From assembly GCA_006508105.1 (NCBI GenBank), contig QKPP01000266.1, positions 1 to 64,000 of the forward strand: 64,000 bases of DNA. The letters are read 5' to 3'. The notes beneath the pieces are model-generated. The model saw only the letters and a list, made by a program, of their open reading frames with translations. It was not told the origin of the DNA and ran no database searches. Both the position numbers and the translations under genes were made by a program. This document shows positions 251-64,000 of the stretch, in pieces (within the stretch, counting starts at the first letter, position 1; every line of letters starts with the position of its first letter). This DNA comes from Myxococcales bacterium FL481. Its GTDB lineage: Bacteria; Myxococcota_A; Polyangia; Nannocystales; Nannocystaceae.

Positions 251-1222
251 TTACTCAGGCTCGAGCGCGGACGGGTCGCAGGCGAGTTGGCACTCGTCGA
301 CGCTGGGGAACAGCGGCCCCAGCGGGCCGCTGCAACCGCTGATCTCTTGACACGTTCCGTCGAGGACGGCGGCGCCCAACCACGCATCACAAGGCCCGAA
401 GTCGTAGCCCGCGTAGTCGACACACTCCACACCGGTGCCGCACTCCCACCCGCAGGTGCGGTCCTCGGTGCAAAAACCGTGACCGACACATTCGGGGTGG
501 GGGAAGTCGTTCCCGTCGACATGGCAATCGACGTCGATCTCGCAATCTCCGTCACGGACGCAGACCGATTCGCGACCGCAGTACGCCGCTTGGCGACAGT
601 CTTCGTTCGACTCGCAGCTTTGTTCGTTGCACACGAGAAAGCCCGCTTCGTCGTAGAACTCGGCATTGCAGCCCCCACAGTAGTTGGCGGTGCAGGTGCC
701 GTCGGCGCAAGGCGGCGCCACTTCGCAGGGGTCGACCAAGCACTGGAACGGCTGGCTCCCATCCGCACACTCGCAGCGGCCATCGCAACAGAGGGTGCGG
801 CCGGACAAGTACTCGTGGTCAGACTCGGAGAGCGCCGACGCGGGGCGGTTGTAGTCGCAGCTGCTGACATCCAATAGCCAGGGGTGGCGGGTCGCTGTCC
901 CGTGCAGCAGATAGCGGTCCCCGACGTCGAGGTCTGCCCCGCAGCCGGCCGAGCTGGTCGCGGTCCGCAGCCAGACGAGGTCACCGCTTGGCCGGCAACC
1001 CTTGTAGGCTTGGTGGACGTCGACAAGGTACGCTCGCAACTGGCGGCCGCGAAACTCGAACAGCACCTTGCCTTCCAGCACTTCGTCGGCGTTGCGGTAG
1101 CTCGAGGTCACGTCGTTTGGTAGGCAGGTACAGGCTTTGGCTTGGGGCGCGTAAACGCTTGATGCGCCAAAGGTGGTTGCCGCCATCGCGGCGATACTCA
1201 GGATCTCGGTCATCGTACGCAT
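251..1222 (-). CDS. secreted Cys-rich protein with TIMP/NTR-like N-terminus and Kunitz-like C-terminus
   Basis: The 323-residue product has a signal peptide whose AKA cleavage motif would release a mature protein starting CTCLP, just as animal tissue inhibitors of metalloproteinases start CTCVP. The following segment (N-A-D-E-V-L-E-G-K-V, later YKG) also fits the NTR/TIMP fold. In TIMPs the free N-terminal Cys chelates the catalytic zinc of the target protease. A long Cys-rich middle (about 25 Cys) follows. The last 50 residues have a spacing close to Kunitz inhibitors (GPC...GTC...GC...F.S..EC..AC), with shortened loops. I chose ATG 1222 because an AGGAG lies 8 nt upstream; an in-frame ATG at 1240 gives six more residues. 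A secreted protease inhibitor is an inference; the middle resembles EGF/disintegrin-like filler of unknown role. Confidence 0.7.
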   Translation of the reverse strand: MRTMTEILSIAAMAATTFGASSVYAPQAKACTCLPNDVTSSYRNADEVLEGKVLFEFRGRQLRAYLVDVHQAYKGCRPSGDLVWLRTATSSAGCGADLDVGDRYLLHGTATRHPWLLDVSSCDYNRPASALSESDHEYLSGRTLCCDGRCECADGSQPFQCLVDPCEVAPPCADGTCTANYCGGCNAEFYDEAGFLVCNEQSCESNEDCRQAAYCGRESVCVRDGDCEIDVDCHVDGNDFPHPECVGHGFCTEDRTCGWECGTGVECVDYAGYDFGPCDAWLGAAVLDGTCQEISGCSGPLGPLFPSVDECQLACDPSALEPE

Positions 1223-1429
1223 GGATTGCACTCCTATCATCGATCTCGTTGGCGCCGCGGCGGGGTGCCACGGTGCGCCCAGCCGCAGCCGTCACCCGAA
1301 AGACTCGGTGGTTCGTGTGACGTCTCAGTCGCGCAGCCGTGCCCGACCCCGAACATCCCGCAGCGCGATGATGGCGTCGTGACCCGCTGTCCTTCACCGG
1401 GTTCGGGGGGGCCGTGCCCGACCCAGCGC

Positions 1430-2557
1430 CTAGCGCTGTGGCTGGGGTCGACGGCCGCGGTGGACCGAGAATCCGACGACGGCGCCACGAGTCTCGCGGC
1501 TTTGCGCCCATACGCGCCCACCGTGCGCGTCGGCGATGCGGCGCACGAGGGCAAGGCCGAGGCCCAGCGATCCCCCGGCGCGGTGGCGGCCCCGATAGAA
1601 CGACTCGAACACGTGTTCGAGGTCCTCGGGTTTGAAACCCGGACCGTCATCCCAAACCTCGAAGCACAGCTCGCGTTCGCGCGACTCGAGCTTGACCGTC
1701 GAGACCCCACCGCCGTGGACGACGGCGTTTTGCAGCACGTTGGTCATCGCCGCGAGCAGGAGAGTAGGGTCGCCTTGCACCGTCGTGGCATCGGTCTCGA
1801 CGTCGAGGCGCGTGGCGTCCACGCCCAGTCGCTCGAGTGCGCGGACGGCCAGCTCGGCGAGATCGACCGGCTGCGATGCGAGCTGCCCGAAATCGACCCG
1901 CGACGTGGCGAGTAGTTGATCCACCAGGCGATCGATCTCGAGGACTTCGCGTTCGAGCTCGTCGAGGTGGGCGTGGTCTTCGGCACCGTCTTTGGCCGTG
2001 TCGATCAACACCCGCATGTGACCCAACGGAGTGCGAAGTTCGTGAGAGACGGCCGCGAGCAGCTCGCGTTGGTCGGCGAGCTGCTGCTCGATCCGCTGGG
2101 CCATGTCGTTGACGGACCGCGCGAGCATGCCGATCTCGCCGCCGGAGAATCGTCCGAGCCCCATGCGACTGTCGAGTTTCCCGGCGCCGAGGTCCCGCGT
2201 CACCTTCATCAGCTCGAGCAGCGGCAGGGTCATGCGGCGGGCGACGCCACCTGCGATGCCCCACAGGCTCAGGGCGCCGACGCCCGTGGCCACCATCAGC
2301 GCCCTGGGGTGCGGCAAAGCGAAGTGGTACACGCCCCAGCCGACCGCGGTGCTAACCGCGATCGCCACGCCGAACCCGACGAAGAGGCGGCGGTGGAGGT
2401 GAGCATTGACGTAGTGGGCGAACCGCCAGCCCCCCGGAGGGGGATTCACGGCCCAGTGCCGTCGCCGACGCGCTGATCCGGGCCGGGGATGGCGACAGTG
2501 CTCCCAGCGAGACGGCGCTCCCCAGGTGGGTGGGTCGCCGGGTCTGCGCCGATTCAT
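1430..2557 (-). CDS. sensor histidine kinase (TM-HAMP-HisKA-HATPase)
   Basis: A 375-residue membrane sensor kinase. Two hydrophobic segments (about residues 57-80 and 86-105) with almost no periplasmic loop are followed by a HAMP linker (about 105-157), the HisKA phosphoacceptor helix with SHELRTPLGH (His172), and a HATPase domain with N-box (NVLQNAVVH), DDGPGF and GLGLAL motifs. The start ATG overlaps the stop of the upstream response regulator gene by the sequence ATGA, so the two are translationally coupled and almost certainly cognate. The first 45 residues are Arg/Pro-rich and the true start could be later. The short periplasmic loop suggests that the separately encoded Spy-like protein supplies the sensing, as in CpxA/CpxP-type systems (inference). 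Confidence 0.9.
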   Translation of the reverse strand: MNRRRPGDPPTWGAPSRWEHCRHPRPGSARRRRHWAVNPPPGGWRFAHYVNAHLHRRLFVGFGVAIAVSTAVGWGVYHFALPHPRALMVATGVGALSLWGIAGGVARRMTLPLLELMKVTRDLGAGKLDSRMGLGRFSGGEIGMLARSVNDMAQRIEQQLADQRELLAAVSHELRTPLGHMRVLIDTAKDGAEDHAHLDELEREVLEIDRLVDQLLATSRVDFGQLASQPVDLAELAVRALERLGVDATRLDVETDATTVQGDPTLLLAAMTNVLQNAVVHGGGVSTVKLESRERELCFEVWDDGPGFKPEDLEHVFESFYRGRHRAGGSLGLGLALVRRIADAHGGRVWAQSRETRGAVVGFSVHRGRRPQPQR

Positions 2558-3225
2558 CTTTCGCCCCGGCTGAACACGTAGCCGACTCCTCGGACGGTCT
2601 TGATGCGATGACCGCCGATCTTCTTGCGCAGCTTGGAGACGTGGACGTCGATGGTGCGTTCGCCCACGGCGACGTCGCCCCGGCCGGCTTGCTCGAGGAG
2701 AGCCTGCCGCGGGATCACGCGGCCGGCCCGACGCATCAGGGCCACGAGTAGATCGAACTCCAGGCCGGTGAGCTCGACCGGTTGGCCCTCGACGTGGCAG
2801 CGGCGGGTGTCGACTTCTACGTCGACATCGTGGCTGCCGAGTCGCTCGGCGGTCACCCCCGGCTGAGCGCGGCGAAGCACCGCACGCAGCCGGGCGAGTA
2901 GCTCGCGTGAGCTGAAGGGCTTGGCGACGTAGTCGTCGGCGCCCATTTCGAGGCCGGTCACGCGATCGGCCTCGTCGCCTTTGGCGGTGAGCATGAGCAC
3001 GGGGATGGGGCCGTCGGCTCGAATCCGTCGCAACACGGTGAGCCCATCCATACCCGGCATCATGACATCGAGCAGGACGCAGTCGTAGCTGCGTCGAGCG
3101 AGTTGTTCCAGCCCTTGCGGCCCGTTCGCCGCGTACTCCAACGTGACATCGTTTTGCGCCAGGTAGGTTCCCAGCAGCTCCCGAAGGCGGGCGTCATCGT
3201 CGATCAGGAGTACGCGGATAGACAC
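2554..3225 (-). CDS. OmpR/PhoB-family response regulator
   Basis: A 223-residue regulator with an N-terminal REC domain (acidic pocket D9-D11, phosphoacceptor D53 in LLDVMMPGMDG, conserved Lys in VAKPF) and a C-terminal winged-helix DNA-binding domain of the OmpR type (V-E-L-T-G-L-E-F-D-L-L, then RTIDVHVSKLRKKIG and VRGVGYVF). It lies 15 nt downstream of the Spy-like gene and overlaps the kinase gene by 4 nt, so the three form one operon. The direct repeat 55-71 nt ahead of the operon's first start codon has the geometry bound by this class and is a candidate autoregulatory site. Confidence 0.95.
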   Translation of the reverse strand: MSIRVLLIDDDARLRELLGTYLAQNDVTLEYAANGPQGLEQLARRSYDCVLLDVMMPGMDGLTVLRRIRADGPIPVLMLTAKGDEADRVTGLEMGADDYVAKPFSSRELLARLRAVLRRAQPGVTAERLGSHDVDVEVDTRRCHVEGQPVELTGLEFDLLVALMRRAGRVIPRQALLEQAGRGDVAVGERTIDVHVSKLRKKIGGHRIKTVRGVGYVFSRGER

Positions 3226-3240
3226 CGGCTCGTCTTGAGT

Positions 3241-3744
3241 CTACGCGGGATCCCGGTAGGGTCGAAAGCTTCCCCGCAGCCCGCGGTCGAGCAGGTCCGC
3301 GAAGCGTTCGCGTTGGTGGGGTTCGAGGGCGTCATGCACCCGGGCCAGTCCCGCGACCAGCTGCTCGCGCGCGCGTCGAATGGACTCGTCCTGACGTGCG
3401 AACGACTCGCCCATCACGGTTTCGTCGAACGAGTCTCCGCGCAGCGCTCGAGCGATGTCGCTCCGGGCCCCGCGCATCTCGCCCTTCAGGTCGCGCAGTT
3501 GGTCGACGATCTCGCCGGCCTCGCGGCGGATGACTTTGCCTTGCTCGGGCGTGACGTCGAGGTGGTCGAGAAAGCCGTCTAGCCAGCGAGCGCGGTGGGA
3601 TGACAACGGGCCTCCCCAGGGGCCGCGCCGGTGTGAACACGACGGCCCGCCCATTCCCCAGCCGTGACCGTAGCCTCGGTGTCGACGCTTGACGTAGCCC
3701 ATGAAAGCGACAGTGGCGATTGCTCCAGCAATGAATCCGAACAT
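3241..3744 (-). CDS. Spy/CpxP/ZraP-like (LTXXQ) membrane-anchored stress or heavy-metal sensor protein
   Basis: A 167-residue protein with an uncleaved N-terminal hydrophobic anchor (about residues 1-17), a His/Gly-rich stretch (about 20-50: RRH, GYGHGWGMGG, CSHRR) that could bind metal, and an all-helical C-terminal part with two LTXXQ-like motifs (DVTPEQGKVI and LEPHQRERF). That arrangement is typical of Spy, CpxP and ZraP, periplasmic chaperone-like proteins that modulate envelope-stress sensor kinases. It is the first gene of a three-gene operon with an OmpR-type regulator and a kinase. A GGCGAGGAG ribosome site precedes the ATG. The role as sensory partner of the kinase is inferred from context and family. 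Confidence 0.8.
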   Translation of the reverse strand: MFGFIAGAIATVAFMGYVKRRHRGYGHGWGMGGPSCSHRRGPWGGPLSSHRARWLDGFLDHLDVTPEQGKVIRREAGEIVDQLRDLKGEMRGARSDIARALRGDSFDETVMGESFARQDESIRRAREQLVAGLARVHDALEPHQRERFADLLDRGLRGSFRPYRDPA

Positions 3745-5756: not shown

Positions 5757-6195
5757 TCGACCAAAGTAGTCCACTCGGAGCGACTCGACAAACTCGCCGA
5801 ATCGATCCCGCACCGGCGGCGAAACGTGGTGCTCGGGCGGGCTCCCGCCGCATGCTGGGGCGGGCGGGAGCGACCGACGGACTCGCGTTCGCGCGGGCTG
5901 CTCAGAGCCCGAGCTCAGCCGGCCCGGCCACCGGCCCGGCTCCAGTCGCGGTGGAGCCGGCTCGTCGCCGTGTTTCCTTGGACGCGCTGACGAACGCCGG
6001 GACCACCGCTGCCGCCGAGGCGCCACCGGACGTCGTCGCGGGCACGGCTCGCTGCTTCGCGCCGGCGTGGCCCGAAGGTTTTGACCGACGGCCACATGTC
6101 TGACCGCGGTTCAGAAGCGCCGTTTGAGGTCGACGCGGTACCCGGTGGATCTGGCGTTGAAACGTCCTCGCGCAGCCGCGATAGTTCCCCGGCCC
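5757..6195. other. divergent intergenic region with one strong hairpin
   Basis: No credible gene lies between the two divergently transcribed lipoprotein genes. The most visible structure is a perfect 9-bp stem CCGGCTCCA / TGGAGCCGG with a 7-nt loop at 5936-5960. It has no T-tract and could be an operator or a leader structure of either gene. Promoter elements could not be assigned with confidence in this GC-rich background. Confidence 0.4.
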
Positions 6196-9100
6196 ATGCG
6201 TCGCCTCACTCACCTGTTGACCTGGTCATTTTTTCTGCTGTTCGCGTGCGCAGCCAGCCAGCGCGCCACCAAGGGGCCCCAAGGGAGCAAGGACGAGGGT
6301 CCGATGTCGACGGGGACCTTCGACGGGCTGGCTCTGCGCAGCATCGGACCGGCCCTGATGTCGGGGCGCATCGCGGACATCGCGGTGCCGCCCGGGGACC
6401 CCAACGTCTGGTACGTGGCCGTCGGTTCCGGGGGGGTGTGGAAGACGGAGAACGCGGGCACGACGTGGCAATCGATGTTTGATGGTCAGGCGTCCTACTC
6501 GGTGGGTTGTGTAACCGTCGACCCGTCGAATCCGCACGTCGTTTGGGTGGGAACGGGCGAAAACGTCGGGGGGCGCCATGTCGGGTACGGCGACGGAGTG
6601 TATCGCTCGCGCGACGGCGGAAAATCTTGGGAGAACCTCGGGCTCAAGCAAAGCGAACACATCTCGAAGATCATCGTGCACCCCGAGGATTCCGAGACCG
6701 TGTGGGTTGCCGTGCAAGGCCCCCTGTGGTCTTCGGGGGGGGAGCGGGGTTTGTACAAAACCACCGATGGCGGGGGCACATGGCGTCAGGTACTCAGCGC
6801 TGGCCCTTGGACTGGCGTGACGGATCTGGCCATCGATCCCCGAGACCCGAAGGTGCTGTATGCGGCGACGTGGCAGCGCCACCGCACCGTTGCCGGCTAC
6901 GTGGGCGGTGGTCCCGAGTCGGGCCTGCACAAGTCGGAAGACGGCGGCGAGACCTGGAGACGACTCACCAAGGGGCTCCCTGGCGATCCGAAGCGAACGC
7001 ACGAGCCGGAGAAAAAGGGGCTGCGCCCACCGAGCAAGCCGATCGACGACGGCAACATGGGCAAAATCGGCCTGGCGATCTCACCCCAAAACCCCGACGT
7101 GCTGTACGCCGCCATCGAAGTCAACCTGCGCAAAGGGGCGGTGTTTCGGTCCACGGATCGCGGCGCATCCTGGGAGAAACGCTCGGATACCGTGTCCGGC
7201 GGAACGGGTCCTCACTACTATCAGGAGCTGTATGCCTCGCCGCACGCCGAAGGTCGGATCTACTTGGCGGACGTACGGATTCAGGTGTCTGACGATGGCG
7301 GCAAGACCTTCCGATCCCTGACGGAGAAATTCAAACACTCGGACAATCACGCCCTCGTGTTTCGCTCTGACGATCCCGACTACTTGCTGGTGGGCACCGA
7401 CGGTGGACTCTACGAGAGCTTCGACCTCGCGAAGAACTGGCGCTTCGTGGACAACCTCCCCGTGACCCAGTTCTACAAGGTGGCGGTGGATGACGCCGTA
7501 CCCTTTTACAACGTGTACGGCGGGACCCAAGACAACAACACGCAGGGCGGCCCCTCCCGCACCGATAGCGCGTCGGGGATCCGCAACGCAGACTGGCGCA
7601 TCATGCTGGGCGGGGACGGCCACCAGCCGGCGACCGAGCCCGGCAATCCCAACATCATGTACGCGGAGTGGCAGCAGGGGAATCTCGTGCGCGTCGACAC
7701 CACGACGGGGGAGCGGGTGTACATCAAGCCGCAGGCCGCGCCCGGTGACCCGCCAGACCGATTCAACTGGGACTCACCGATTCTCGTCAGCCCGCATTCG
7801 CCAACGCGCCTGTACTTCGCGTCCCAACGGTTGTGGCGCTCGGACAACCGCGGGGATTCGTGGACCGCGATTTCGGGTGATCTCACACGAAACGAGGAGC
7901 GACTGTTGATCCCGCACATGGATCGCAAATGGAGTTTCGACTCGCCGTGGGATCTGTGGGCGATGTCCGAATACAACACGATCACCTCCGTGGCCGAGTC
8001 TCCCCGCCAGCCGGGGTTGCTTTACGTGGGCACCGACGATGGGCTGATTCAGGTCACCGATGACGGGGGCAAAAACTGGCGCAAGATCGAAGTCGGCAAG
8101 CTGCCGGGGGTGCCGAAGCGGGCGTTTGTCAACGACATCAAGGCCGACCTGTTCGACGCCGACACGGTCTATGTCGCCCTCGACAACCACAAGTACGGCG
8201 ACTTCGGGCCGTATCTTCTGATGAGCAACAACCGCGGCCGAAGCTGGCGGTCCATCGCCGGGGATCTGCCCGATCGACATCTGGTATGGCGCGTGGTCCA
8301 AGACCACGTTCGCAAGGAGCTGTTGTTCGCCGGTACGGAATTCGGCGTCTTCTTCACGGTCGATGGGGGACGTCAGTGGATCAAGCTGGCCGGGGCGGCG
8401 CCGACGATCCCGTTTCGGGATCTGGCGATCCAGCGCCGCGAAAACGACTTGGTCGGCGCGAGTTTTGGCCGGGGCTTTTGGATCCTCGACGACTACACCC
8501 CGCTGCGATTCGTCGATCAAAAGGCGCTGAGCCAGCCCGCGATGCTGTTCTCGCCGCGGCGCGCCTATTGGTACATCGAGCGGCGAGATCTCGGATCGTC
8601 GCGGAACAAAAAGGCGGCGCAGGGCGAGGGCTTCTACACCGCCGACAATCCTCCCTTTGGTGCCGTGCTCACCTACTATCTCAAAGACGGTCTTCGCACC
8701 CGCACCATCAAGCGGCGCGAACAGGAGATCGAGCGCATGAAGCTGGGCAAGGACACGCCGTTTACCAGCTGGGACGACATGGAGGCCGAGGCACGTGAAC
8801 CCGAGCCCGCGATTATCTTGACCGTGCGGGATGACCAGGGGCAAGTTGTGCGTCGTTTGTACGGGCCGACGTCGCCGGGGATGCATCGCGTGGCTTGGGA
8901 TCTGCGGCTGCCCGCTCGCACTGCGCTCGGGCTCAAGTCGGACTACAAGTACGCTGAGGATCACGAGCCGCGCGGCGTCATGGTGGGTCCCGGTCGCTAC
9001 ACCGTGACGCTCTCCAAACGCGAGGACGGCAAGACGGTCGACCTCACCGGGGCGGTCGATCTCGATGTGGTGCCTTTGCGCCAAGGCGGCGCGCTGCCGG

Positions 9101-9570
9101 GGGCAGATCCGAAGACCGTGGCCGCGTTTTGGAAGCGCGTCGCGACGCTGGCGCGTAGCGTGTCGGCGGCATCAGTGGCTCTCAAGCAGACCAAGGCTCG
9201 CTTGGATCGACTCGAGCAGGCGCTGGACCGGTCGCGCTCGGCCCCGGACGGCCTCGACGCCGAGCTCGACCAGTTGCGTCACACGCTCGCAGATCTGCGC
9301 GAGGAGCTGCGCGGCAACCCAGCGAAAGGCATGATGGCCGCAGCCGAGCCGCGCACCGTGCGGGCTCGTCTGGACTTCGTGGCCGAAGGCACGCTCGACT
9401 CAACCTACGGACCCAACCCCGCGCACATTCAGAACATGGAGCTCGCGGAGCAAGGTTTCCAAGAGATCCGCGAGCGGCTCAATCGGTTGCTGACCGAGCA
9501 GTTGCCCGCGTTCGAGAGCCGTCTGCAGCAGGCGGGCGCCCCCTGGGCTCCGGGCCAGCCGATTCCATGA
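6196..9570 (+). CDS. large BNR/Asp-box beta-propeller lipoprotein (sortilin/VPS10-like family)
   Basis: A 1124-residue predicted lipoprotein (hydrophobic leader ending LLFAC). The first roughly 750 residues carry at least nine Asp-box/BNR motifs of the form S/T-x-D-G-G-x-T-W (for example DGGKSWENLG, DGGGTWRQV, DGGETWRRL, DRGASWEKRS, DDGGKTFRSL, NRGDSWTAIS, DDGGKNWRKIE), which build one or two beta-propellers as in VPS10/sortilin and YCF48-type proteins. A C-terminal beta-rich region (about 770-960) and a final helical, coiled-coil-like segment follow. Homologues of this size are usually annotated as 'glycosyl hydrolase, BNR/VPS10 repeat', but no glycosidase catalytic residues can be assigned here. 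ATG 6196 gives the leader directly; an upstream in-frame ATG at 6124 adds 24 residues unlike a signal peptide. Confidence 0.85.
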   Translation: MRRLTHLLTWSFFLLFACAASQRATKGPQGSKDEGPMSTGTFDGLALRSIGPALMSGRIADIAVPPGDPNVWYVAVGSGGVWKTENAGTTWQSMFDGQASYSVGCVTVDPSNPHVVWVGTGENVGGRHVGYGDGVYRSRDGGKSWENLGLKQSEHISKIIVHPEDSETVWVAVQGPLWSSGGERGLYKTTDGGGTWRQVLSAGPWTGVTDLAIDPRDPKVLYAATWQRHRTVAGYVGGGPESGLHKSEDGGETWRRLTKGLPGDPKRTHEPEKKGLRPPSKPIDDGNMGKIGLAISPQNPDVLYAAIEVNLRKGAVFRSTDRGASWEKRSDTVSGGTGPHYYQELYASPHAEGRIYLADVRIQVSDDGGKTFRSLTEKFKHSDNHALVFRSDDPDYLLVGTDGGLYESFDLAKNWRFVDNLPVTQFYKVAVDDAVPFYNVYGGTQDNNTQGGPSRTDSASGIRNADWRIMLGGDGHQPATEPGNPNIMYAEWQQGNLVRVDTTTGERVYIKPQAAPGDPPDRFNWDSPILVSPHSPTRLYFASQRLWRSDNRGDSWTAISGDLTRNEERLLIPHMDRKWSFDSPWDLWAMSEYNTITSVAESPRQPGLLYVGTDDGLIQVTDDGGKNWRKIEVGKLPGVPKRAFVNDIKADLFDADTVYVALDNHKYGDFGPYLLMSNNRGRSWRSIAGDLPDRHLVWRVVQDHVRKELLFAGTEFGVFFTVDGGRQWIKLAGAAPTIPFRDLAIQRRENDLVGASFGRGFWILDDYTPLRFVDQKALSQPAMLFSPRRAYWYIERRDLGSSRNKKAAQGEGFYTADNPPFGAVLTYYLKDGLRTRTIKRREQEIERMKLGKDTPFTSWDDMEAEAREPEPAIILTVRDDQGQVVRRLYGPTSPGMHRVAWDLRLPARTALGLKSDYKYAEDHEPRGVMVGPGRYTVTLSKREDGKTVDLTGAVDLDVVPLRQGGALPGADPKTVAAFWKRVATLARSVSAASVALKQTKARLDRLEQALDRSRSAPDGLDAELDQLRHTLADLREELRGNPAKGMMAAAEPRTVRARLDFVAEGTLDSTYGPNPAHIQNMELAEQGFQEIRERLNRLLTEQLPAFESRLQQAGAPWAPGQPIP

Positions 9571-30641: not shown

Positions 30642-32717
30642 ATGCCCCGCCTCGTTTGCTCGCCGTTCCCTCGGTCCCGACCCGAATCCACCGAGCGCCC
30701 GCCGGTTCGATCACGGCGGCCGGCGTGGTGCGCTCGCTTGTTGATTGTCGGCTTCGCGGTCGCCGGACTGGCGCCGAGTCGCGGTGTCGCGGCGACGCCG
30801 TCCGCCTCCCCGCCGTCGCAGACGAATGCCTACTGGGTGTACTTCACGGACAAAGGCGTCCGCGGGCCCTTCAAGCGGGCGGCGTTGTTGGCCCGAGAGC
30901 GTGAGCTCTCGCCGCGTACGCTAGCTCGGCGCGCTCGGGTTCGGGACTTGCCGTTGGTCGACGAGCGCGACTTGGCGGTCGATCCGAGCTACGTGGCGAC
31001 CGTGGTGCGGCTTGGGGCCGAGCTGCGCCACCCCTCCCGCTGGCTGAACGCGGTCAGCGTGAACGCGACGGCGCAGCAGGTGGAGGCGATCGCCGAGTTA
31101 CCGTTCGTGCGAGCGACCGACCGGGTTGCTCGACATCAACGCGCTCCGTCTGTCCCCGCGCCACTGGCTGAGCCGGGGCCGGGTGATTCTTCTCGCCGTA
31201 CGTCGGGCTCCGGCCACGATCTCGCGCGAATCGACGATCCGAGCGGCTGGGACTACGGTCGCGCGCTTGAGCAGGTCACAGCGATGGGCGTGCCGGACGC
31301 TCACGAGTGCGGGCTGACGGGTGCGGGGGTGATCGTGGGGGTCTTGGACGCTGGGTTCGGGTTGGACCATCCCGCGTTTGATGAGCTCGAGATTCTCGGC
31401 GAGCGAGACTTCGTCGACAACGACGACGATGTGGGTCAAGACATCGGCCACGGTACGTCGACGTTGTCTTTGGTCGCGGGCTGGGATCCCGGCACATTCA
31501 TCAGCGTCGCGCCCAGAGTCTCGGTTTACGTGGCGCGAACCGAAGACGGCAGCCAGGAGGCGCCGATCGAGGAAGACAACTACGTGGCGGCGATCGAATG
31601 GATGGAAGGAGAAGGGGTCGATGTGACGAGTTCTTCGCTGAGCTACGTCGATTGGTACGAGCCTGAAGACTACGACGGCGACACGGCACCCACCTCACAG
31701 ATCGTCGACATGGCGGTCGCCAACGGGGTTGTGTGCGTGACATCTGCCGGCAACCGTGGGCCCGGGGCGAGTACCTTGGGTGTGCCGAGCGATGCCCACG
31801 AAGTGCTGACAATCGGCGCCACGGACATGCAAGGCAACATCGCCGGCTTCTCGTCCCGGGGGCCGACGGCCGATGGTCGCATCAAGCCGGATCTGTGCGC
31901 ACCGGGGTCGAGTGTGGCGCTGGCCCAAGGGGGCGGGGGCTACGGGAGCTCGAGCGGGACCAGTTTCTCAACGCCGTTGGTCGCGGGCGCGGTGGCGCTG
32001 CTGCTGGAGATGGATCCGGAGCTGACCCCGGACGACGTTGAGACGCTGCTCAAGGAGACGGCCCAACTCGATGGCGACCCCGACAACACCTACGGGTGGG
32101 GTTCGGTCGACATGATCGCCGCGACCGAGGAGCACTGCGATTGCGAGGATGTCGACGAGGATGGCTTCAAGGACGTCGAATGCGGTGGCGATGATTGCGA
32201 CGACAGCGATCCGACCATCCACCCCGAAGCGGAGGAGGACTGCCAAGATGGTGCAGACAATGACTGCGATGGTGATGTCGATGGCGACGATGCGGACTGC
32301 GCAGACGATGACGACGACAATGACGATGACGATGACGACGACGACGACGATGATGACAATGACGACGATGATGATGATGATGACGACGATGATAATGACG
32401 ACGATGGCGATGATGACGACGATGATGATGACGATGATGATGATGACGATGACAATGATGACGACGATGATAATGACGACGATGGCGATGATGACGACGA
32501 CAATGATGACGACGATGGCGATGATGATGACGAAGGTGGTGATGACGACGACAATGGCGGTGACGACGACGATGACGCTCCCGGTGCCGCCGGGGGCAAT
32601 GACGAGGGTTGCGGGTGCGACGCGACGACGGGCCGGGGCTCCTCCACGTTGGCGGGCCTCGGCGGCCTATTGCTCACGTGGACCCGTCGTCGCCGTCGAG
32701 CCCGGCTCGACACCTAA
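30642..32717 (+). CDS. secreted subtilisin-like protease with MopE-type repeat, poly-Asp region and MYXO-CTERM-like anchor
   Basis: A 691-residue S8 protease with signal sequence and propeptide (about 30-190). The triad is complete: Asp236 (GVLDAGFG), His270 (DIGHGTSTLSL), Ser441 (GTSFSTPLVAG), with oxyanion Asn in TSAGNRGPG. Next comes a Ca/Cu-binding-type MopE motif (DEDGFKDVECGGDDCDDSDP, ending GADNDCDG), then about 90 almost pure Asp/Asn/Gly residues, then EGCGCDATTGRGSS, a short hydrophobic helix and RRRRR. That tail resembles MYXO-CTERM, which directs surface anchoring by a rhombosortase-like system. An extracellular, cell-surface protease is inferred. The poly-Asp stretch is encoded by a GAY minisatellite. 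Confidence 0.92.
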   Translation: MPRLVCSPFPRSRPESTERPPVRSRRPAWCARLLIVGFAVAGLAPSRGVAATPSASPPSQTNAYWVYFTDKGVRGPFKRAALLARERELSPRTLARRARVRDLPLVDERDLAVDPSYVATVVRLGAELRHPSRWLNAVSVNATAQQVEAIAELPFVRATDRVARHQRAPSVPAPLAEPGPGDSSRRTSGSGHDLARIDDPSGWDYGRALEQVTAMGVPDAHECGLTGAGVIVGVLDAGFGLDHPAFDELEILGERDFVDNDDDVGQDIGHGTSTLSLVAGWDPGTFISVAPRVSVYVARTEDGSQEAPIEEDNYVAAIEWMEGEGVDVTSSSLSYVDWYEPEDYDGDTAPTSQIVDMAVANGVVCVTSAGNRGPGASTLGVPSDAHEVLTIGATDMQGNIAGFSSRGPTADGRIKPDLCAPGSSVALAQGGGGYGSSSGTSFSTPLVAGAVALLLEMDPELTPDDVETLLKETAQLDGDPDNTYGWGSVDMIAATEEHCDCEDVDEDGFKDVECGGDDCDDSDPTIHPEAEEDCQDGADNDCDGDVDGDDADCADDDDDNDDDDDDDDDDDDNDDDDDDDDDDDNDDDGDDDDDDDDDDDDDDDNDDDDDNDDDGDDDDDNDDDDGDDDDEGGDDDDNGGDDDDDAPGAAGGNDEGCGCDATTGRGSSTLAGLGGLLLTWTRRRRRARLDT
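32304..32576 (+). repeat. GAY (GAC/GAT) minisatellite encoding poly-Asp, with a 78-bp internal tandem unit
   Basis: Ninety-one codons are almost all GAC/GAT with occasional AAT/AAC (Asn), GGC/GGT (Gly) and GAA. A distinct block beginning GATAATGACGACGATGGCG recurs at 32391 and at 32469, exactly 78 bp (26 codons) apart, showing that the tract grew by in-frame tandem duplication. Synonymous GAC/GAT variation indicates selection on the acidic peptide rather than on the DNA alone. Confidence 0.9.
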
Positions 32718-60948: not shown

Positions 60949-61687
60949 AGCGTGAGCATCGTCGTGTCTGGCGAAGGGTTGAGGCCGTGCGGCTTGTCGC
61001 TGCCAGCGCAACGCCGGGGCTGACGGGACCTCGAGAGACCGGCCCACAGCGGGGCGTTATGGCGGAGACATCGGTCGGCGCGACGGGCAAACGAGCCGGT
61101 CGCCGCCGTCTCGGGTCATCACCGACCGAGAGAGGCGGTCGGGGGGTAGATCCGCTCAAGCCCATAAGACCGATGAAGCGGCGAGGAGCGAGCGGGCAGA
61201 ACGCCGGGTCGCTGGGGCCCGCTCGAAGATGAAGATTGTTCGCGCCGGCCGGCGATAGCGCCTACGCCCGAACAGCGTGCGGATCCGGTGAACGCGGCTT
61301 GAATGGCGCGGGAAAGACCAGCGGTCATGATCGGTCCCAACCAACGCGGCGCCGGAGCTCGCTACGGCGCCGGAGCTGTCGCCGTTGGCTCGCCCTGTGC
61401 CAGACAATGAGAGTGGGTCGACCGAGACGGGGGGGCCGCGGCTCGCACCTCGGGGAACCGAAACGAGGGCTCTGAGGGCTGCACTCGAACACACCATCCA
61501 TGGCCAAGCGGCGAGCAGACCCTCACCGGTGTCAATACGCGCCTCATGGGTCCGGCGGACGCCGCCGAGGGTGGATTGGGGCATGTTGAGCAATCGCTGC
61601 GACAGCGAAACTCGTCACCGATTTGCCGCACCGGATCCGGCAGCACGCGACATGGGGAGGTGCGTCATCTCTCCACGCCGGACCTGT
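60949..61687. other. divergent intergenic region without a supported gene
   Basis: 739 bp between the H-NOX operon and the M1 aminopeptidase gene. A minus-strand frame at 61156-61593 shows no domain, signal or ribosome site. Promoters for both directions should lie here, but I cannot assign them. Confidence 0.4.
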
Positions 61688-64000
61688 ATGCAAAAACGCT
61701 CATCTGTGACTTCAGTGGCCCTACTGGCCGTTCTCGCTTCCTGCGACGAGGACATCAACCTCGCTACGGGCTCGACCAGTGCAATCGTTCGCTCGGGGCG
61801 CGATTCTCCCGATCTCGCTCGTCGATCGAAGCCGAGCAACGAACCAGTCACATTCGGTGGATTTCCGCGCGCCGAGTATCTGGAGTCGCACATATCGCCC
61901 GAGCGCATTGGGAGGGCGCGGTCTCGCGAGTTTCGACTGCCCCCGGCTCGCGATCGCGCCCCGCTTGGCACACAGCACGACGACTGCTCGTCGGTTACCC
62001 AGGGACGAGGTTGTCGCGGGTACGACGCGCGTGCCTACCGGCTTGCCACGTCGATTGACTGGACCGCGAAGCAGGCGGTCTCACGTGAGCGCATCGACCT
62101 GGTTCTTGACGATCCGAACAAAGCGGTGATTGAGCTCGATGCGAATGTTGACATCCAATCAATCTCGCGACGAGGCGTCGAGCTAGCGTATGAAGTCGAC
62201 GCAGACGCTGAACTGTTATGGGTCGATACGCGAGTCGACGGCTCTGCTCGACGTCGCGTGCGACTAAGCATTGAATTTGTCGCGCGCGAAAGCGCTGGCT
62301 TGATCTTCGCGGATCCCCCCGCCACGGACCCCAACCGAGGCCGAACGATGTTCACTCACTCCGAACCCGATCGCGGCAAAGACTGGTTGGTGGCCAACCA
62401 CACCGCATCGGATCGCGCGCGATTCTCGGTCGAGGTTGACGTTGACCGCAGCGACAACGTCGTCGCGAATGGGCGGCGAGTATCGGATCGCGTGTGTGGC
62501 GACAGGAGAACGGTCCGATACGCCTTTTGGAACACCGCCCCCACGTACACCATGGCGTTCGCCGCGGGCAAGCTGGAGGTCGTCCGCGATCGATCGGGGC
62601 CGATCGCGTTGGAACTGTGGCACCGCCCCGGCCTGCTCGTCGACCACGACGAGCACTTCCTTGAGACAAAACGGGTTCTCACAGAATTTCAGGCGGTACT
62701 GGGGCCGTATCCCTGGCGTAGCTACGCCGTCGTGTTGTTGCCGCAGTTTCCCGGCGCGATGGAGAACGTGGGGGTCAGCTTCGTGTCCGAGAATCTGCAC
62801 TTCTTTCCCGCGTACCACGCATATGCCCACGAGTTGGCCCATCAGTGGTTTGGTGACCTTGTGACCATCGCTACGCCAGACGACCTGTGGATAAAAGAAG
62901 GACTCGCCACACTGCTGGCGCTCGACGCGTTGCGTCACACGCACGACGAGCAGGACACCGGATCGTTCTTGGGGGCGTTGAACTACTACAACCCCGCGGA
63001 TGCTATCGTGGATCGAGAGCTCCAGGGCTTGGAAAAGTACACGACTGGTCCGTACGGCAAGGCCGCCTGGTTGCTTACGCAGATCCGCGCGTCAATCGGA
63101 GAGGACGCGTTCTTTGGCATCTTGCGGACCGTGCTACGCAAGTACCGATTCGACGCGATTGGTACGGACGCGTTCGTAGAAGAGTTCCGCGACGCGCTCG
63201 GCGATAAGAGAACGGATCAGTTTCGTCGAGTTCTCGAACTGCACAGTGGGCCGGAGGCCTACGCCGACGCCGTGGAGATTGAGGGGGGATATCGCGTTGA
63301 GGTGGGAGTTGATGATCCGGAGCGAACGCTGCTCGACCCCGTCGAGCTTACAATGATCGACGCGAAGGGGAGGGCGTCACAGTTGACACTTGGTAGCGAT
63401 GAGAGCACGGTATTGGAGATTGAGCACGGAGGATACTTCGCTCCCGACGAACGTGGCGTACATACCAACGCCAGTATGCTGTTGCCGCCCGAAGTCGCCT
63501 TTCCCGCCTCGAGGCGTGCGCTGCGGGTGTTTACTCGGCGTTCGCCGACTCACCAGGCCATCGCCATGTGGGCGACCTCCGGCACCTTCACGTCGCCGAA
63601 GCAGTTTTCTCGGGTGGCGCGGCGTCTCGACGGAGTCAACTCACGAATGCAAGCCGAGCTCCAGGCATGTGACGTGCTCGCAACGATCACGGATGAGAAG
63701 AAGCGCCGTGGCTGGATTCGGGCTCTCGAGCCACTTTTGCGCATGCCGCATGAGCCATGGATCGGGCTGCCGTACGGGAGTTGCGGCGTGGACACGGCCT
63801 GGGAACTGTTTGGCGACGAATTTCTGGAGATGAGTGACAACTTGACCGGGAAAAGCCTGCCGCGCTGGATCTATCTGCTGGCGTACGACTACGGCCCGTC
63901 GACGATGTTTGAGATTCTCGCCCCGATCGCTCGTGAGCCCACCGCTGAAGCGAGCCGCTACGCGGCTTTGTACCGACTCACCGGCCAGGTGCTTACTCCA
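61688..64000 (+). CDS. M1-family metallopeptidase lipoprotein (3' truncated by the window)
   Basis: 771 codons are visible, open at the window end. The leader MQKRSSVTSVALLAVLASC ends in a lipobox-like LASC. The catalytic domain has the GAMEN exopeptidase motif (FPGAMENVGVSF), the zinc motif HELAH (381-385) and the third ligand Glu404 in WIKEGLA, at the classical 18-residue spacing. The N-terminal 250 residues are the beta-saddle typical of ERAP/LTA4H-like M1 enzymes; a helical C-terminal domain follows. It should be an envelope-anchored zinc aminopeptidase. Codon usage is slightly richer in A/T-ending codons than in neighbouring genes. Confidence 0.9.
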   Translation, partial: MQKRSSVTSVALLAVLASCDEDINLATGSTSAIVRSGRDSPDLARRSKPSNEPVTFGGFPRAEYLESHISPERIGRARSREFRLPPARDRAPLGTQHDDCSSVTQGRGCRGYDARAYRLATSIDWTAKQAVSRERIDLVLDDPNKAVIELDANVDIQSISRRGVELAYEVDADAELLWVDTRVDGSARRRVRLSIEFVARESAGLIFADPPATDPNRGRTMFTHSEPDRGKDWLVANHTASDRARFSVEVDVDRSDNVVANGRRVSDRVCGDRRTVRYAFWNTAPTYTMAFAAGKLEVVRDRSGPIALELWHRPGLLVDHDEHFLETKRVLTEFQAVLGPYPWRSYAVVLLPQFPGAMENVGVSFVSENLHFFPAYHAYAHELAHQWFGDLVTIATPDDLWIKEGLATLLALDALRHTHDEQDTGSFLGALNYYNPADAIVDRELQGLEKYTTGPYGKAAWLLTQIRASIGEDAFFGILRTVLRKYRFDAIGTDAFVEEFRDALGDKRTDQFRRVLELHSGPEAYADAVEIEGGYRVEVGVDDPERTLLDPVELTMIDAKGRASQLTLGSDESTVLEIEHGGYFAPDERGVHTNASMLLPPEVAFPASRRALRVFTRRSPTHQAIAMWATSGTFTSPKQFSRVARRLDGVNSRMQAELQACDVLATITDEKKRRGWIRALEPLLRMPHEPWIGLPYGSCGVDTAWELFGDEFLEMSDNLTGKSLPRWIYLLAYDYGPSTMFEILAPIAREPTAEASRYAALYRLTGQVLTP

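Follow-up and report, generated by a model that had tools for sequence, protein, structure and literature searches.

Within the 64,000-nt stretch of Myxococcales bacterium FL481 DNA analyzed here (the window), a gene on the minus strand encodes a predicted secreted bacterial member of the N-TIMP family. Based on its sequence, its predicted structure and analogy with animal TIMPs, the protein likely inhibits metzincin-type zinc proteases at their active site via a free N-terminal cysteine. This reading draws on matches to TIMPs, a predicted fold for which TIMPs rank first, conservation of the inhibitory wedge, a conserved cleavage site, and metzincin candidates encoded in the genome; we infer the activity itself from sequence.

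Gene and genomic setting

The open reading frame, which the earlier sequence-only reading had reported without its strand, exists on the minus strand and encodes 323 aa. An AGGAG sequence at 1231-1235 favors the start at 1222 over the in-frame ATG at 1240, and the G+C content at the three codon positions (0.63/0.52/0.80) is as in coding DNA. The predicted mature protein has 293 residues, including 32 Cys, with a mass of 31.5 kDa and a pI of 4.2. The gene, the parts of its product and the context genes are as follows.

251-1222, minus strand: coding sequence of the TIMP-type gene, 323-aa precursor (ATG at 1222, stop codon TAA at 251-253)
1231-1235, minus strand: AGGAG, resembling a Shine-Dalgarno sequence, 8 nt ahead of the ATG at 1222 (read from the sequence)
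1133-1222, minus strand: predicted Sec signal peptide of 30 aa, ending Y-A-P-Q-A-K-A, with signal peptidase I site AKA↓C (conservation in 34 relatives)
794-1132, minus strand: N-TIMP (NTR, OB-fold) domain, mature residues 1-113 (Pfam, PDB searches, AlphaFold model)
1118-1132, minus strand: predicted mature N-terminus C1-T2-C3-L4-P5, equivalent to TIMP-2 C1-S2-C3-S4-P5, for zinc chelation and primed subsites (alignment; TIMP-2 contacts from PMC3779175)
938-964, minus strand: T57-A-T-S-S-A-G-C-G65, equivalent to the TIMP-2 C-connector T65-A-P-S-S-A-V-C-G73, for non-primed subsites; C64 corresponds to TIMP-2 C72 (alignment)
857-859, minus strand: C92, corresponding to TIMP-2 C101, the partner of C3 (alignment)
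638-793, minus strand: Cys-rich module CCxxxCxC...CxxDPCxV...NYCGGCNAEFYD, the first part of which can be aligned to the beginning of the TIMP C-domain (profile alignment)
425-637, minus strand: second Cys-rich linker, low model confidence (AlphaFold)
278-424, minus strand: Kunitz-like domain of 49 aa with six Cys, a hairpin, a C-terminal helix and Asp as putative P1 (alignment, profile, model)
1430-2557, minus strand: HAMP histidine kinase gene (context), upstream in the same orientation, with 207 bp between it and the ATG at 1222
2554-3225, minus strand: OmpR-type response regulator gene (context)
3241-3744, minus strand: gene for a Metal_resist (PF13801) periplasmic protein (context)

The genes for the Metal_resist protein, the OmpR-type regulator and the HAMP kinase lie in a row (1430-3744, minus strand) directly upstream of the TIMP-type gene, an envelope-stress-like arrangement; the 207-bp gap between the kinase gene and the ATG is compatible with either co-transcription or separate transcription. 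Downstream of the TIMP-type gene is the contig end. Elsewhere in the window, a 1148-aa predicted exported sortilin/BNR-repeat protein is encoded at 6124-9570 on the plus strand.

High-G+C DNA yields overlapping open reading frames on the opposite strand, and a CxC motif could arise by chance in a reading frame that had been mis-called. We rejected this explanation, the probability of which is negligible, as refuted by the significant family matches of the protein; other genomes also encode relatives (33-50% identity) with their domains in this order, and these, like the Shine-Dalgarno-like sequence before the ATG, argue against it.

The TIMP domain and its predicted mature N-terminus

On the evidence of sequence searches and the structural model, the N-domain is near certainly a true homologue of animal TIMPs, by descent and not by mimicry. 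It matched the Pfam TIMP model (PF00965) with an E value of 6.1e-9 and 36.4 bits, above the curated cut-off of 23.1, and TIMP was the sole Pfam family that the N-domain protein matched at E values up to 10. A single-sequence phmmer search of PDB chains returned TIMPs only (TIMP-2, E value 1e-6), with query Cys31 aligned to TIMP-2 residue 1. When a profile of 12 bacterial relatives was compared with the PDB, it matched TIMP-2 (2.3e-19), TIMP-3 (4.8e-16) and TIMP-1 (about 1e-13), and column 1 fell on chain residue 1 every time. A profile of the long multidomain forms only matched TIMP-2 at 3.9e-15, extending past LNxRY to reach the first part of the TIMP C-domain; this alignment ends, at low confidence, at TIMP-2 residue 141 (the full TIMP C-domain has three disulfides).

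AlphaFold, run with a 10-sequence alignment, predicted an OB-type N-domain with pLDDT mostly at 85-95, falling to 62 over the first ten residues and below 50 at residues 133-195. In a Foldseek search of the N-domain model against the PDB, the 18 best matches were all TIMPs (E values from 3.5e-8), and the NTR domains of complement, PCPE and agrin ranked after them; the target TM to N-TIMP-1 was 0.73. The sequence-only reading had proposed that the N-terminus mimics TIMP, which requires an NTR/OB fold there; that fold was predicted, with TIMPs first among the structure matches, and the Pfam, PDB and profile matches bear out the likeness to TIMP, yet as homology. In the alignment to TIMP-2, both the third N-domain disulfide (C13-C126) and the long AB loop of TIMPs are absent. 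Because position 13 is Arg and the C13-C126 pair, which lies outside the zinc-binding wedge, is missing, we place the protein by sequence within the N-TIMP domain family as a divergent member, short of a classical TIMP.

The precursor opens with MRTMTEILSIAAMAATTFGASSVYAPQAKA, followed by CTCLPND; residues 28-33 are AKA↓CTC, followed by LP, so that AKA directly precedes Cys-Thr-Cys as the earlier reading had stated. We gathered 34 bacterial relatives by profile and CxC...CG, independently of any signal-peptidase motif, and in all 34 the CxC directly follows the signal peptide at a signal peptidase I site of the type [AV]-x-[AS]. Position -3 is Ala in 33 relatives and Val in one, position -1 is Ala in 32 and Ser in two, position -2 is mostly polar or charged (Q/R/H/E/D; Lys here), and a helix breaker lies between -9 and -4 in 29 of the 34. 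A lipobox before Cys1 was found in none of the relatives, and the site here is AKA↓C; the conserved site thus points to cleavage at this position and not elsewhere. Since a signal peptidase I site without a lipobox would leave Cys1 unmodified, its alpha-amine should be free after export, which that of a lipoprotein would not be. A Cys right after the signal peptide is also the lipoprotein arrangement, and the TIMP-like protein of Listeria (Tim, lipobox LTAC) is a lipoprotein (PMC8235301); if Cys1 were lipidated here as well, its alpha-amine would be unavailable. We rejected this very improbable reading based on the missing lipobox in the 34 relatives, and the residues at -3 and -2, together with a fold that needs Cys1 as a disulfide partner, likewise count against it.

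In the crystal structure of MMP-10 with TIMP-2, the primed side of the cleft is filled by C1-S2-C3-S4-P5 and the non-primed side by P67-S-S-A-V-C72, while Cys1 binds the zinc through its amine and carbonyl (PMC3779175). The counterparts of these residues here are C-T-C-L-P and T-S-S-A-G-C. Identity to TIMP-2 was 10/15 in the wedge vs 26/101 elsewhere (Fisher p 0.003), or 7/12 vs 24/97 with Cys left out (p 0.02), and the columns invariant across 12 diverse bacterial relatives were C1, C3, T57, A62, C64, G65, L75 and C92. By these alignments, no part of the protein is better conserved than the TIMP wedge (C-T/S-C plus SSAxCG). All four Cys of the TIMP pairs 1-72 and 3-101 are aligned and invariant, the bonds themselves being predicted. 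Position 2 is Ser or Thr in 30 of the 34 relatives; it is Lys or Arg in some of the long forms, which also carry connectors other than SSA (NEA, EGS). One Myxococcota genome encodes two paralogous long-form TIMP proteins (L022 and L062) whose predicted mature N-terminus reads CKC; a Lys as second residue would be an unusual occupant of the S1' pocket in MMPs.

The Cys-rich middle and the Kunitz-like tail

The CCxxxCxC...CxxDPC...NYCGGCNAEFYD stretch is common to all long forms. Its second half recurs in secreted proteins of Neomarinimicrobiota that have no TIMP domain (L023-L029). These proteins, from Candidatus Neomarinimicrobiota and other MAGs, have the YCGGC module and then the same Kunitz-like domain as the protein described here; some of them are fusions that also include a hydrolase-like domain and, at the C-terminus, a secretion tail.

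Cysteines in the tail domain are spaced C-x10-C-x12-C-x5-C-x13-C-x3-C; classical Kunitz spacing is C-x8-C-x15-C-x7-C-x12-C-x3-C. The collected loci contain 14 copies of the domain, up to three in tandem, with 12 invariant columns; the Cys pattern is therefore no chance arrangement. AlphaFold predicted a hairpin and a C-terminal helix (pLDDT 92.7) in the element order of Kunitz domains, with shorter loops. All 50 of the 50 structure matches listed were Kunitz domains (best E value 0.35, TM about 0.45-0.5), as were all four matches in a PDB profile search (E values 0.11-0.54), and the Pfam Kunitz model matched none of the 14 copies. The putative P1, the residue after the second Cys, is Asp here and Asp or Glu in 9 of the 14 copies. 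Of the Kunitz resemblance proposed in the sequence-only reading, the six-Cys pattern and the likeness in fold stand, and statistical significance (E at least 0.35 by structure) and a Pfam Kunitz match do not; going by the model, the tail domain is Kunitz-like in fold resemblance and not Kunitz proper.

One extension of the inhibitor reading, compatible with it, is a bifunctional protein in which the TIMP domain would act on metalloproteases and the Kunitz-like domain on serine proteases. The confidently modeled six-Cys domain, the uniformly Kunitz identity of its structure and profile matches, the resemblance of GPCxA at the P1 position to GPCKA of BPTI, and the animal WFIKKN proteins, which join Kunitz and NTR modules (PMC3427181), are in its favor. 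Nevertheless, this extension is improbable: no match is significant, the loops are shorter, the Pfam Kunitz model is unmatched, and some long relatives (L016, L019, L021 and L022) lack the domain. Based on the acidic P1, trypsin-type inhibition is unlikely, and serine-protease inhibition in general is doubtful because the fold match is non-significant, the domain is shortened and P1 is mostly acidic.

Proposed mechanism, candidate targets and distribution

In the mechanism we propose, signal peptidase I would cut after AKA, as the conserved site suggests, leaving Cys1 N-terminal. Disulfides would link Cys1 and Cys3 to C64 and C92 in the OB barrel, based on the alignment to TIMP-2 C72 and C101, and these bonds would build a rigid wedge from CTCLP and TATSSAGCG. 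As in TIMP-MMP structures, the wedge would enter the substrate cleft, where the alpha-amine and carbonyl of Cys1 would chelate the catalytic zinc and Thr2 would occupy S1'; the Cys-rich and Kunitz-like C-terminal domains would be accessory binding modules.

We searched the organism's own genome for metzincins by protein family and identified five proteins with the HExxHxxGxxH motif, which match Matrixin/Reprolysin weakly. Two of the five carry an IMSP Met-turn-like motif, and one is a Peptidase_M54 relative; no M43 metzincins were found in this genome. These five proteins are candidate targets. Two related secreted metzincin-like proteins of this genome (L065 and L068, on contigs C142 and C101) have HEAGHxFGLEH and IMSPT, after which long Asp-rich repeats (DDDDDT) run into the contig ends. 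None of the five candidate genes lies near the TIMP-type gene. A search for HExxHxxGxx[HD] identified no metzincin link around nine long-form loci, the neighbor genes of which share no family; likewise, a metzincin occurred in 0 of 20 Myxococcota TIMP neighborhoods vs 2 of 20 control regions. A functional link drawn from neighboring metzincins was rejected, as these neighborhoods (nine long-form loci and 20 TIMP genes, against 20 controls) are not enriched in them. The targets may lie elsewhere in the genome or in other organisms. Both peptidases that the sequence-only reading had pointed to in the window are real, a subtilase at 31320-32102 and an M1 peptidase at 61331-64000 (cut by the window end), each on the plus strand. 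M1 enzymes are gluzincins, whereas TIMPs inhibit metzincins; because the two genes are also 30 and 60 kb away, they are no evidence for targets.

A TIMP/NTR-fold homologue with a non-inhibitory role (e.g., in adhesion, in a matrix or in metal binding), its CxC and disulfides being kept for stability only, is possible, albeit unlikely. Many NTR domains, among them those of complement C3/C4/C5, agrin NtA and PCPE in our structure-match list, do not act as active-site inhibitors, and the neighborhoods compared showed no link to metalloproteases. Against inhibition also stand the variation at position 2 (Lys/Arg) and in the connector (NEA/EGS) in some long forms, the absent C13-C126 disulfide and AB loop, and the pLDDT of 62 over the first ten model residues. 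In the complement, agrin NtA and PCPE proteins, however, the first Cys is not known to form the mature N-terminus, whereas Cys is predicted at that position in all 34 relatives here; furthermore, the non-Cys wedge residues T57, S61, A62 and G65 are kept and closely match TIMP-2. Inhibition of metzincins via the free N-terminal Cys is thus the reading we favor.

Animals are known to use this type of mechanism; the novelty, based on sequence comparison, lies in its clear presence in bacteria and in this combination of domains. Animal TIMPs (MEROPS I35, PF00965), especially TIMP-2, share with the protein the N-TIMP OB domain, the mature N-terminal C-[ST]-C, the SSAxCG connector, Cys at positions 1, 3, 72 and 101, and the LNxRY region ahead of the C-domain. 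The protein differs from them in being bacterial, in lacking the C13-C126 disulfide and the long AB loop, and in its C-domain, which beyond the start gives way to Cys-rich YCGGC and Kunitz-like modules; its inhibitory activity is predicted. The nearest published precedent is the Mtz-Tim pair of Listeria monocytogenes, in which Tim is likewise a secreted, TIMP-like bacterial protein tied to a metzincin (PMC8235301). Tim is TIMP-like in predicted structure, not sequence, is a lipoprotein, and adjoins its metzincin, which cleaves it; in its relatives from other Firmicutes, the signals are of the signal peptidase I type (PMC8235301). Unlike Tim, the protein described here is a TIMP sequence homologue, and the pairing with an adjacent metzincin gene was seen neither here nor in the neighborhoods of relatives that were searched. 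The Pseudomonas alkaline protease inhibitor, going by the title of Hege et al. 2001 as cited in PMC8235301, is also a bacterial metzincin inhibitor, acting via a zinc-NH2 bond. WFIKKN/GASP proteins are secreted multidomain proteins with Kunitz and NTR modules as well; however, their NTR domain is C-terminal, leaving no free N-terminal Cys, and they were described in deuterostome animals (PMC3427181).

Among 379 sampled genomes of the Myxococcota, the Pfam TIMP model matched in 12, and the bacterial profile identified a TIMP domain in 63. The domain was also found in 1 of 247 genomes in the phylum of L015 (a Desulfatitalea MAG) and 1 of 8 in the phylum of L019 (a Nitrospirae MAG), bins that could each be misbinned. 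Plasmid records contained no match to the protein, and viral contigs no relative. Most Myxococcota forms are short, consisting of the TIMP domain and often a C-terminal hydrophobic tail and Arg cluster, and the long multidomain form is rarer than the TIMP domain as such. The short forms (e.g., L038-L059) share the signal peptide, AxA↓CxC, the SAxCG connector and the TIMP domain with the protein described here; they differ in mostly having 150-200 mature residues, in many cases with a sorting-like tail, and no YCGGC or Kunitz-like part. Many of L038-L059 end in a hydrophobic stretch and Arg cluster as in surface-sorting tails, and some have GCASC or GC before the hydrophobic stretch; judging from these motifs, the tails would display the TIMP domain on the cell.

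An unrooted tree separated the short forms from the long forms plus TIMP-2 and TIMP-3 (support 99/97); built on 119 columns with two animal sequences and a long TIMP branch, it does not give the direction of descent. It is a speculative and quite improbable proposition, taken as a whole, that TIMP-type metalloprotease inhibition through a free N-terminal Cys was invented long ago in bacteria (here in about 1 in 6 sampled Myxococcota genomes), that the long form is the nearest known bacterial kin of animal TIMPs, and that this member is two-headed, with an acidic P1 suiting Glu/Asp-specific proteases.

A search of the literature identified no description of bacterial TIMP sequence homologues, which is weak evidence given that subscription papers were mostly outside its scope, and automatic annotation may already name the domain because Pfam recognizes it. 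TIMP homology and Cys as the predicted first mature residue suggest that the animal mode of switching off metalloproteases is also used in bacteria, and homologues that keep the wedge and a predicted free N-terminus would extend the mechanism into that domain of life. Such homologues would allow phylogenetic tests of how animal TIMPs originated, and they would offer small natural inhibitor scaffolds.
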